This document shows, piece by piece, positions 39,760 to 43,838 of a stretch of 64,000 nucleotides of DNA. Numbering within the stretch: the first letter of the stretch is position 1; each line of letters begins with the position of its first letter. The position numbers and the translations under genes were made by a program. The notes beneath the pieces were generated by a model that was not told the DNA's origin, made no database searches, and was given only the letters and a program-made list of their open reading frames with translations. This stretch comes from Streptomyces sp. PCS3-D2 (GTDB taxonomy: Bacteria; Actinomycetota; Actinomycetes; Streptomycetales; Streptomycetaceae), in assembly GCF_000612545.2 (NCBI RefSeq), contig NZ_CP097800.1, forward strand, positions 1,550,001 through 1,614,000, given 5' to 3'.

Positions 39760-40155
39760 TCAGCGGCCGGGTCGGAGGGAGGCCAGCGCGGCGTCGAGGC
39801 GGCGGGTGGCCTCCTCGGCAACGCCTTCCAGGGCGGGCAGTCCGGTCAGGGTGGACATGACCGCGGGATCCAGGGCCTGAACGACGGTGCGGTCGCCGTC
39901 GGCGCGGACGACGACGTTGCAGGGCAGCAGGAGCCCGATGGTGCGGTCGGCGTCCAGGGCCTGCCGGGCCAGCGGCGGGTTGCAGGCGCCCAGGATCAGG
40001 TAGTCCTCCATTGCGTGGCCGAGCTTGGCCCTCAGGGTGGCGGTGACGTCGATCTCGGTGAGGATGCCGAAGCCCTGAGCGGCCAGGGCCTCGCGGACGG
40101 CGGCGACGGTGTCGGCGAAGCCGGCGTCGAGGTGGACGGTGCGGTCATAGCGCAT
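39760..40155 (-). CDS. DUF302 protein of the persulfide module
   Basis: A 131-residue DUF302 domain protein: GFADTVAAVREALAAQGFGILTEIDVTATLRAKLG, followed by YLILGACNPPLARQALDADRTIGLLLPCNVVVRADGDRTVVQALDP. The CNPP and LLLPCNVVV cysteines are family hallmarks. Structural studies place DUF302 among small alpha/beta proteins; its reaction is unknown, but it recurs next to sulfide and persulfide genes. It is transcribed away from the CstB-like gene, with two C5G5 palindromes in the shared 164-bp promoter region, so the repressor probably controls it too. Confidence 0.85.
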   Translation of the reverse strand: MRYDRTVHLDAGFADTVAAVREALAAQGFGILTEIDVTATLRAKLGHAMEDYLILGACNPPLARQALDADRTIGLLLPCNVVVRADGDRTVVQALDPAVMSTLTGLPALEGVAEEATRRLDAALASLRPGR

Positions 40156-40245
40156 GGCGCCATCCCTTCACGTCGGGGTCGGGTACGGCGGCCGGAGACT
40201 GGTGGCCGCCGGGCGGGAGAGCGGGCGCCCCCACACCGTCAAAAA

Positions 40246-40259
40246 TACCCCCGGGGGTA
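40246..40259. promoter_or_regulatory. CstR-type operator, site 1
   Basis: TACCCCCGGGGGTA is a perfect 14-bp palindrome in the divergent DUF302/CstB promoter region. CsoR-family repressors bind T-A-C3-6-G3-6-T-A type palindromes. A -10-like TAGTCT at 40267-40272 for the CstB direction would put this site over the -35 region. Confidence 0.85.
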
Positions 40260-40279
40260 CCCGTGCTAGTCTCGATGCA

Positions 40280-40293
40280 TACCCCCGGGGGTA
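40280..40293. promoter_or_regulatory. CstR-type operator, site 2
   Basis: The same perfect palindrome TACCCCCGGGGGTA occurs again, 34 bp centre-to-centre from site 1 and 26 bp before the CstB start. It would overlap the transcription start or leader of the CstB-like gene. Confidence 0.85.
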
Positions 40294-40319
40294 AAAGAGC
40301 AGCCGAAAGGAGCAACCGC

Positions 40320-41687
40320 GTGTTCTTCATCGACACCATCGAGACCGAGGGCCTGGGAAACCGCAGCTATCTCGCCGGCGGCGGCACGACCGCCGTCGTG
40401 GTCGACCCGCCGCGCGACATCGACCGGGTCCTCTCGGCGGCAGCCCTGCGCGGCGTGCGGATCTCCCACGTGGTGGAGACCCACGTCCACAACGACTACG
40501 TCACCGGCGGCCTGGACCTGGCCCGCCTGACCGGCGCCGCCTACCTGGTGCCGGCCGCCGCCCGCGTCTCCTTCGCCCGCACCCCGGTCGCGGACGGCGA
40601 CACCGTCGGCGTCGACGACGGCATCACGCTGCGGGCGCTGGCCACCCCCGGCCACACCCCCCACCACACCTCCTACGTCCTCCAGGAGGACGGGCGGATC
40701 GCGGCGGTCTTCACCGGCGGTTCGCTGCTGATCGGCTCGGTGGGCCGCCCCGACCTGGTCGAACCGCGCCTGACCGCACAGCTGGCCCGCGCCCAGCACG
40801 CCTCGGCGCACCGCCTGGCCGCCGAGCTCCCCGACGAGACGCCGGTGCTGCCCACCCACGGGTTCGGCAGCTTCTGCTCCTCCTCCCAGGCCGAGGGCGA
40901 CGCCACCACCATCGGCAAGGAGAAGACCGCCAACGACGCCCTGGTCAAGGACGTCGACTCCTTCGTCGCCGGCCTGCTGGCCGGCCTGGACGACGTACCC
41001 GCCTACTACGCGCACATGGGTCCGACCAACGCCGCCGGCCCCACCCCGGTCGACCTCGCCGCTCCGCCCCTGACCGACGCCGCCGACATCGCAGCCCGCC
41101 TGGCCGCCGGGGAATGGGTCGTCGACCTGCGCAACCGCATCGCGTTCGCCGCCGGGCACGTCGCGGGCTCGTTCAATTTCGAGGCCGACGGGAAGATCGC
41201 CACCTACCTGGCCTGGATGATCCCCTGGGGCAAGCCCGTCACCCTGCTCGCCGACTCACCCGCCCAGCTCGCCGCCGCCCAGCGCGAACTGGTCCGCGTC
41301 GGCATCGACCGCCCCGCAGCCGCGGCCACCGGGACCCCCGCCGACTGGATACCCGAAGGCCACACCCCCCGCGCCTTCCCCCGCGCCACCTTCGCCGACC
41401 TCGCCGAGCAGACACCCGGCACCGTGGTCCTCGACGTGCGCCGCGACTCCGAGCGCGCCGCGGCGTTCATCACCGGATCCACCCACATCCCGGTCCACGA
41501 CCTCCACCGCCGCCTGGCCGACGTCCCGGCAGGGACCGTTTGGGTCCACTGCGCCGGAGGCATGCGCGCGGGCATCGCCGCCTCCCTCCTGGACGCGGCC
41601 GGACGCGATGTCGTCGCCGTCGACGACTCCTTCGACGCCGCGGCGCGAGCCGGCCTGCCCCTCACCAGCGGCGGCCACACCCCCTGA
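40320..41687 (+). CDS. cstB: CstB-like persulfide dioxygenase fused to pseudo-rhodanese and rhodanese
   Basis: A 455-residue three-part protein. GTG 40320 follows GAAAGGAGC. Residues 1-245 form a metallo-beta-lactamase-fold persulfide dioxygenase with ligands H55, H57 and D59 (ETHVHNDYVTGG), GHTPHHTSY and THGFGSFC. Residues about 255-345 resemble a rhodanese (WVVDLRNRIAFAAGHVAGSFNF) but have LLADSPAQ where the active Cys loop should be, so this is a pseudo-domain. Residues about 355-455 are an active-looking rhodanese with Cys411 (VHCAGGMRAG). This is the order of staphylococcal CstB, which oxidises persulfides and passes sulfane sulfur to sulfite to form thiosulfate. The role here is inferred from that match and from the CstR operators. 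Confidence 0.9.
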   Translation: MFFIDTIETEGLGNRSYLAGGGTTAVVVDPPRDIDRVLSAAALRGVRISHVVETHVHNDYVTGGLDLARLTGAAYLVPAAARVSFARTPVADGDTVGVDDGITLRALATPGHTPHHTSYVLQEDGRIAAVFTGGSLLIGSVGRPDLVEPRLTAQLARAQHASAHRLAAELPDETPVLPTHGFGSFCSSSQAEGDATTIGKEKTANDALVKDVDSFVAGLLAGLDDVPAYYAHMGPTNAAGPTPVDLAAPPLTDAADIAARLAAGEWVVDLRNRIAFAAGHVAGSFNFEADGKIATYLAWMIPWGKPVTLLADSPAQLAAAQRELVRVGIDRPAAAATGTPADWIPEGHTPRAFPRATFADLAEQTPGTVVLDVRRDSERAAAFITGSTHIPVHDLHRRLADVPAGTVWVHCAGGMRAGIAASLLDAAGRDVVAVDDSFDAAARAGLPLTSGGHTP

Positions 41688-42858: not shown

Positions 42859-42938
42859 CCGCACCGGGGCTCGACCCTCCGACCGCACCACGCCCCCCAT
42901 GTCCCCCGACCCCCCACACAAGGACGGAACACCGCACC

Positions 42939-43505
42939 GTGCCCCATCCCCGCGCCCTCGACGCCCACCAGGCCCACAGCCGCCTCCACGAACTGGTCGT
43001 CCTCGACGTCCGCACCCCCGGCGAATACGCCACCGGACACCTTCCCGGCGCCCTCAACATCCCCCTCGACCACCTCACCGGCGCCCTGCCCGACATCCGC
43101 AAGGCCGCCGAACGCGGCGACATCCTGGTCGTCTGCGCCTCCGGCGCCCGCTCCGAGAGCGCCTGCAGGACCCTCGCCGACGCCGGCGTCACCACCGCCA
43201 CCCTCGCGGGCGGCACCACCGCCTGGGCCGACGGCGGCCACCCCCTCCACCATCCCGAAAGCAGCCGCAGCACCTGGGCCATGGAACGCCAGGTCCGCTT
43301 CACCGCCGGCGCCGTCGTCCTGACCGGCCTCGCCCTCGGCCGCCTGCGGCCCGCCTTCCGCCTCACCTCCGCAGGCATCGCCGGCGGCCTGGTCTTCTCC
43401 GCCCTCACCAACACCTGCGGCATGGCGGCCCTCCTCGCCAAACTCCCCCACAACCGCCCCCGCCAGGGCGACCTCGAAGCCGCCCTCGCCTCCCTCCGCG
43501 GCTGA
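42939..43505 (+). CDS. Rhodanese fused to a membrane DUF2892 domain
   Basis: A 188-residue protein. Residues 5-110 are a rhodanese with Cys66 (VVCASGARSESAC; note the A-S loop rather than R-S-G). Residues about 118-175 form DUF2892-like hydrophobic segments (VRFTAGAVVLTGLALG and AGGLVFSALTNTCGMAALLAKLP), which anchor the domain in the membrane. The sulfurtransferase would therefore act at the membrane, next to the TSUP exporter. The start GTG at 42939 has no strong ribosome site. An operator and the cstR gene follow. Confidence 0.88.
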   Translation: MPHPRALDAHQAHSRLHELVVLDVRTPGEYATGHLPGALNIPLDHLTGALPDIRKAAERGDILVVCASGARSESACRTLADAGVTTATLAGGTTAWADGGHPLHHPESSRSTWAMERQVRFTAGAVVLTGLALGRLRPAFRLTSAGIAGGLVFSALTNTCGMAALLAKLPHNRPRQGDLEAALASLRG

Positions 43506-43521
43506 CCCCACCACCCACCCA

Positions 43522-43535
43522 TACCCCCTGGGGTA
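43522..43535. promoter_or_regulatory. CstR-type operator, site 3
   Basis: TACCCCCTGGGGTA differs from sites 1 and 2 by the central base pair only (arms TACCCC/GGGGTA). It lies 37 bp before the cstR start and so would give autoregulation as a separate promoter. Confidence 0.8.
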
Positions 43536-43571
43536 CCATGGAGTGATCGAGCACAAGCCCAGGAGGCACCG

Positions 43572-43838
43572 GTGAAAGTCGACGAAGAAGCCGTCAGCGC
43601 AGTCCTCAACCGGCTGCGCCGCGCACAGGGCCAGCTCGCCGGAGTCATCGCCATGATCGAAGCCGGGCGCGACTGCAAGGACGTCGTCACCCAGCTCGCC
43701 GCCGTCTCCAAAGCCCTCGACCGCGCGGGCTTCAAAATCGTCGCCAGCGGCATGCGCCAGTGCATGGCCGACGCCGACGCGAGCCAGGCCCCGATGTCCG
43801 AGGAAGAACTCGAAAAGCTCTTCCTCGCCCTCGCCTGA
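43572..43838 (+). CDS. cstR: CstR-type persulfide-sensing repressor (CsoR/FrmR family)
   Basis: An 88-residue all-helical repressor. The GTG at 43572 follows AGGAGG. It has the family core [52 protein letters not shown]. Cys35 and Cys64 are the two conserved thiols. Copper-sensing CsoR also needs a His four residues before the second Cys (HxxxC); here that position is Gly60, so the copper site is incomplete. That pattern fits CstR, which forms a trisulfide link between Cys residues when persulfides appear and then releases DNA. The palindromes at three module promoters agree with this. It is the last gene of the module. Confidence 0.9.

Follow-up and report, generated by a model that had tools for sequence, protein, structure and literature searches.

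Close counterparts of the locus analysed here have already been described. In Streptomyces coelicolor, the ScCsoR sulfane-sulfur oxidation circuit (sco0618-0621) was characterised by Lu et al. 2020 (PMC7533328), and the available text of that paper reports a persulfide dioxygenase (PDO) gene and a csoR-like gene within three open reading frames in 773 of 1977 Streptomyces genomes. A second system, the SUL module, was described in 2018 from the Antarctic Arthrobacter plasmids pA8H1, pA40H2 and pA58H2 (PMC6305408). We report a related block in a 64,000-nucleotide stretch of the Streptomyces sp. PCS3-D2 genome (contig NZ_CP097800.1, positions 1,550,001 to 1,614,000; hereafter, the window), where six genes and three palindromes lie between the trehalose genes treY (35486-37780) and treZ (44606-46360). 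We propose, with a probability of roughly 85%, that this block is a horizontally acquired, self-regulated module predicted to detoxify sulfane sulfur.

The block shares with the S. coelicolor circuit, as far as the available text describes it, a PDO-rhodanese fusion, a TauE protein, a rhodanese and a CsoR-family repressor, together with two operators before pdo and one at the repressor gene (PMC7533328). It differs in including a DUF302 gene and a free rhodanese, in its position within the trehalose locus, and in a repressor of another CstR subclade that is encoded last and on the same strand; in S. coelicolor, the repressor is divergent between tauE and the rhodanese. The SUL module, in the text available to us, shares a plasmid-borne sulfur dioxygenase, a CsoR regulator, two rhodaneses, TauE and DUF302, and additionally has a major facilitator superfamily transporter and a small hypothetical gene; the comparison is one of gene content (PMC6305408). 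Since the S. coelicolor circuit shares the core and the operators and the Arthrobacter module nearly the same gene set, this kind of module is already known. What is added here is a documented replacement event and a puzzle at the iron site of the enzyme.

The staphylococcal cst locus is likewise comparable in its CstR-type repressor, CstB-type fusion, TauE neighbour and plasmid occurrence. On an S. pasteuri plasmid, the 6.3 kb seen has cstR, cstB and TauE annotated and neither DUF302 nor a rhodanese of the YgaP-like type. CstA is another product named in the staphylococcal cst locus. A search of open-licence PMC text found no paper uniting CstR, plasmid, horizontal gene transfer and persulfide. 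The window offers an unusually clear example of how a stress module of plasmid type can displace a resident gene from a chromosomal locus that is otherwise conserved, since relatives still show the site as it is without the module.

The enzyme and its iron site

All six genes listed in an earlier note on this DNA, from DUF302 to the repressor, are present at the positions it gave and pass Pfam cut-offs on translation (Table 1); treY and treZ also lie where it had placed them. Its description of a CstB-like enzyme of three domains held for the outer two, which Pfam recognises as Lactamase_B and Rhodanese. The middle (pseudo-rhodanese) domain has no Pfam match, and its assignment depends on the full-length match of residues 7-447 to PDB 3tp9, which together with 3r2u was nearest in a fold search. 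The C-terminal rhodanese carries the loop HCAGGMR with the catalytic Cys, and the pairing of metallo-beta-lactamase and rhodanese domains is that of a type III PDO.

Solved PDOs bind iron by two His and one Asp; the available text of PMC6060420 names D129/130 for the Myxococcus xanthus and A. caldus enzymes. The window enzyme has both histidines, His55 and His112, and a glycine, Gly134, in place of the Asp; Gly134 aligns to Asp129 of the M. xanthus PDO 4ysb (HMMER, with the residue number counted from the alignment). Glycine holds this position in every one of the 88 distinct homologues that are at least 61% identical, a count that includes the window enzyme, and likewise in six further actinobacterial copies from a plasmid collection (39-86% identity), in 10/10 homologues from ten other genera (49.8-58.7%) and in more distant Streptomyces paralogues (40-43%), among them a second PDO of this genome. 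Asp stands there in 9/9 Streptomyces rows at 35-38% identity, in a 35% copy of another genus, and in the Exiguobacterium, Paenarthrobacter and Aurantiacibacter copies. The S. pasteuri CstB, about 26% identical to the window enzyme, differs from it in retaining the Asp. Judged from these alignments, the iron-site puzzle is a property of a wider clade and not of the window enzyme alone.

The absent Asp leads to one of the competing explanations, namely that the enzyme is not a working PDO and that the module only moves sulfur by rhodanese chemistry and exports it. Replacing D130 of the A. caldus PDO by Ala, Glu or His left 0.5-2% of the activity (PMC6060420, available text), and the conservation of Gly throughout the close homologues fits the same idea. 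Against it, ScPDO of S. coelicolor, comparable by its similar gene setting, consumed O2 with glutathione persulfide (GSSH), oxidising it with a Vmax of 1.19 umol O2 per min per mg, and cells from which it was deleted contained more sulfane sulfur, as reported in the available text of PMC7533328. The main text of that paper does not use the words metal, iron or ligand. We consider a non-oxidising enzyme unlikely.

If the enzyme is instead a PDO, as we prefer, a large actinobacterial PDO clade might hold iron without Asp, by two His and an open site, a third His or another side chain; this is a tentative idea that we would not yet bet on. If true, an oxygenase family would function with iron ligands that, judging by mutants of one canonical member, should leave almost no activity. 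An AlphaFold model of the enzyme (mean pLDDT, predicted local distance difference test, of 72) has loops 58-61, 135-150 and 181-194 below 50, too poor to judge a third ligand. Among the matches listed from open-licence PMC text, by title and abstract start, no paper on an Asp-to-Gly iron site was found. The site is a directly testable puzzle.

As a separate observation, the second PDO-like gene of this genome (G000:C1:1344629-1345933; L141 8630-9934, minus strand) is 43-45% identical and also has Gly at the ligand position. It adjoins a sulfite-oxidase-type molybdopterin oxidoreductase (PF00174 and PF03404), and an 18-kb stretch around it contains no operator match. This pairing suggests a separate persulfide-to-sulfate route.

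Replacement at the trehalose locus

Positions of treY, treZ and the enzyme gene were compared in 150 Streptomyces genomes, our own included. From the 149 others searched, we fetched for comparison the 11 loci whose treY is most like that of the window (72-88% identity). A search of 61 genomes called relatives yielded none closer than those in the 150-genome sample. All 11 relatives share the gene order treY, M14 peptidase, FHA, treZ, and in none of them were module genes found between treY and treZ. The window has the same flanking genes, an M14 peptidase gene at 38187-39608 and an FHA gene at 43931-44494 (minus strand). In the gap between them, nine of the 11 relatives carry acetyltransferase (GNAT)-like DNA on the minus strand in window orientation; a Pfam check, made in L037 only, assigns its gene to PF00583 at 1e-16. 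Window homology to L037, the most similar relative, breaks at the limits given in Table 1, and homology to the other ten ends at 39555-39619 and resumes at 43889-43938. Because GNAT-like DNA occupies the gap in 9/11 relatives and homology breaks on either side of the block, we conclude that the block took the place of a GNAT gene, at a location whose content varies, which supports horizontal acquisition.

The earlier note had read the block as an insertion between treY and treZ and had proposed comparing that spacing across Streptomyces. The outcome it named as contrary, the same genes separating the pair in all relatives, did not occur, and the insertion is supported by the lack of module genes at the site in the 11 relatives. 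The M14-FHA interval (39609-43930 in the window; L037-L047 in relatives) is itself variable: besides the GNAT-like DNA and the persulfide block, it contains short remnants in L038, a 2-oxoglutarate-Fe(II) oxygenase gene in L039 and extra DNA in L040. It may be a tolerant exchange site.

Codon composition also sets the block apart. The note's impression, by eye, of genes richer in C-ending codons than their neighbours was borne out by measurement: the pooled C fraction at fourfold sites is 0.744 for the module vs 0.509 (standard deviation 0.10) for 37 other window genes; the simple gene-calling script used for these did not pick up treZ or FHA. All six module genes are rich in C-ending codons. 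A sample of 73 genes from the same genome gives 0.522 (standard deviation 0.10), none of 20,000 random six-gene sets reaches 0.744, and the maximum of 68 contiguous runs of six is 0.618. For the window enzyme gene the value is 0.684, whereas none of the 89 other copies measured goes beyond 0.63.

These data bear on the possibility that the locus is a native chromosomal persulfide locus that relatives have lost. Such modules are common in the genus: 74/150 genomes (own genome included, short fragments excluded) together have 82 places with an enzyme gene at least 62% identical. Only the window places one near treY, however; the others lie on the treY contig at a distance of at least 175 kb (34), on other contigs (42) or in genomes without a treY position entered (5). 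With the module missing from the spot in every relative, GNAT-like DNA there in nine, and a composition unlike the neighbours, loss from relatives is very improbable.

Copies on plasmids and in relatives

A blastn search of the block against 72,556 plasmids returned 179 records, nine of which cover at least 80% of it. Three Streptomyces plasmids match at 84.4-84.6% DNA identity, from inside the DUF302 end to exactly the repressor stop codon; they carry the six-gene block, and two of them were seen to be linear. An Embleya megaplasmid also encodes all six genes. Three of the 11 relatives (G012, G038 and G039) have the module elsewhere in the genome, in G012 as a block of all six genes that lies some 0.4 Mb inside one end of a 9.0 Mb contig (L049).

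Layout was counted in the best 80 named loci of 576 relatives, of which 69 have at least 3 kb on each side. The repressor is divergent between tauE and the membrane rhodanese in 41/69; the window order, with the repressor last and on the same strand, occurs in seven, three of these with DUF302. The sublineage with the repressor after the membrane rhodanese (L048-L050, L057-L061, L073-L074, L137, L139, L144) is found on Streptomyces plasmids, a chromosome-sized contig, draft contigs and one Embleya megaplasmid, and some of its copies have no DUF302.

Of the 69 loci, 25 have DUF302 close to the enzyme gene, divergently in 23. It also occurs together with TauE, a CsoR-type repressor and the enzyme, though in other gene orders, on plasmids of Pseudonocardia, Mycobacterium and Rhodococcus fascians, three of the four examined; on the R. 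koreensis plasmid, none of the enzyme's partners is annotated in the 7 kb seen. Two Cys are conserved in DUF302, in the motifs ACNP (37/42 homologous rows) and PCNV (35/42), with rows not covering the motif counted. Given its presence in 25/69 loci and its recurrence on actinobacterial plasmids, DUF302 is a frequent but not constant member of the module. The comparative evidence adds weight to a role of both DUF302 and the YgaP-like rhodanese in persulfide detoxification.

Repressor and operators

The repressor has Cys35 and Cys64, about 29 residues apart, and Gly60 in place of the copper-binding His. Among 80 homologous repressor rows (73 distinct; taken from fetched loci, some genomes fetched twice), 78 read Cys-Gly-Cys across the two sensor positions and the copper-His position; the remaining two show Arg and a stop, respectively. 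Another CsoR of this genome aligns a His at the copper position (C-H-C type). In ScCsoR, both Cys37 and Cys66 are needed, and polysulfide frees the protein from DNA, according to the available text of PMC7533328.

A repressor tree places the window protein in a 30-row set (95/87 support), separate from the divergent ScCsoR-like repressors. The alignment is short in columns, the bootstrap did not settle and 47 of the tree's 85 inner branches are open; we use this one supported split. The set includes all 14 same-strand repressors of the tree that follow the membrane rhodanese, the window's included, as well as repressors of one Mycobacterium and one Rhodococcus plasmid and of loci with a second, Asp-type PDO class. 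Eleven tree rows are labelled as beside Asp-type enzymes, which were seen in five loci (L013, L015, L052, L053 and L056; L012 is the same copy as L056, and L052 also contains a Gly-type enzyme). By this split, therefore, both PDO classes share a single repressor subclade, while enzymes of the Gly type occur with repressors of two subclades.

The three near-identical palindromes of the earlier note are real: two stand ahead of the enzyme gene and the third ahead of the repressor gene (Table 1). Except for a mismatch at its final base, each fits ATACCn6GGTAT, the sequence that ScCsoR is reported to bind in the available text of PMC7533328. The enzyme gene has exactly two operators in its upstream 130 bp, spaced 31-37 bp, in 63 of the 69 eligible named loci; three loci have three, one has one and two have none. 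Allowing up to one mismatch, ATACCCCNNGGGGTAT occurs at four sites in the 7.6 Mb genome, three of them in the block, and the reversed-pattern control gives 0. At two mismatches there are five sites vs four per strand in the control, so these weaker operator-like sites carry no meaning.

The only perfect ATACCCCNNGGGGTAT site of the genome (G000:C1:785287-785302; L140 7289) precedes DUF6153 and DUF305 genes, a cluster that we take to be copper-related. No window protein used as a query matched in the 15-kb stretch around it. This site is perhaps a copper-CsoR target, and cross-talk with CstR is possible.

That the block itself is a copper module, with a copper-sensing CsoR and incidental rhodaneses, is highly improbable: membership of the PF02583 fold family (above cut-off), best solved-structure matches labelled copper CsoRs and the perfect site before the DUF6153/DUF305 cluster point that way, but the copper-binding His is missing, none of the six genes encodes a copper pump or a copper chaperone by Pfam, and the genome has its separate C-H-C repressor.

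Proposed working of the module

We propose the following working for a persulfide detoxification module. Reduced CstR would occupy the tandem pair of operators between the DUF302 and enzyme genes, as well as the single one ahead of its own gene. Modification of Cys35 and Cys64 by persulfides or polysulfides would then release CstR and allow expression of the six genes. The free and membrane rhodaneses would gather and hand on sulfane sulfur, the PDO-rhodanese enzyme would oxidise low-molecular-weight persulfide to sulfite and maybe also thiosulfate, and TauE would export the product. DUF302, with its two conserved Cys, is probably a sulfur carrier or buffer.

Several points weigh against this proposal. 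The enzyme departs from a two-His, one-carboxylate iron site at Gly134, and DUF302 is absent in 44/69 loci. Among the genes scanned there was no integrase, and junction repeats were not specifically sought. The codon bias fits block transfer but names no donor, because copies elsewhere are also C-rich: DUF302 and the membrane rhodanese average 0.70 and 0.69 in other copies, and the closest plasmid copies are mostly C-richer than their own neighbours. Among the matches listed in a search of open-licence PMC text there was no experimental work on the window's repressor subclade, and we infer both regulation and chemistry in this organism from sequence.

Sulfane sulfur is reported to alter antibiotic production and sporulation in S. 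coelicolor (PMC7533328, available text), so gain of the module could change host development.

Feature coordinates and other signals

Table 1. Features of the persulfide block, in window positions
Feature	Position	Strand	Evidence
Interval not aligning at the DNA level with the module-free locus of L037, the most similar relative; contains the acquired block	39637..43887	.	DNA comparison
DUF302 protein, divergent first module gene	39760..40155	-	PF03625 2.1e-24
Operator 1, CstR-type palindrome, predicted	40245..40260	.	ATACCCCCGGGGGTA, genome pattern scan
Operator 2, predicted, 34 bp from operator 1	40279..40294	.	ATACCCCCGGGGGTA, genome pattern scan
Persulfide dioxygenase-rhodanese fusion (type III PDO / CstB-like), Gly134 at Asp ligand position	40320..41687	+	Lactamase_B and Rhodanese Pfam
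Free rhodanese, active-site loop CRSGHR	41741..42115	+	PF00581 2.4e-18
TauE/SafE (TSUP) exporter, predicted	42112..42858	+	PF01925 1.2e-46
Membrane rhodanese with YgaP-like transmembrane domain	42939..43505	+	PF00581 1.2e-14, PF11127 2.4e-7
Operator 3, predicted, ahead of repressor gene	43521..43536	.	ATACCCCCTGGGGTA, genome pattern scan
CstR-type repressor, CsoR family; Cys35, Cys64, Gly at copper-His position	43572..43838	+	PF02583 1e-24
10-bp GC hairpin, predicted; doubtful module part, possibly of the resident FHA side	43901..43924	+	Folding vs shuffles

A promoter scan gave a single promoter-like site, which lies outside the module, together with a single terminator-like site that does not stand out from shuffled sequence. 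The unit had been thought to end at a hairpin. A hairpin is indeed predicted, at about 43901-43924 and with no T run: 3/200 shuffles of a 92-base stretch fold equally well (z -2.6), and a 45-base stretch gives z -2.1. Its membership of the unit is doubtful, as DNA homology to L037 and L044 resumes at 43888-43889, left of the hairpin; in the other nine of the 11 relatives it resumes only at 43919-43938. The L037 stretch matching the hairpin folds weakly better than shuffles (z -1.7), and the hairpin may be resident rather than module-borne.

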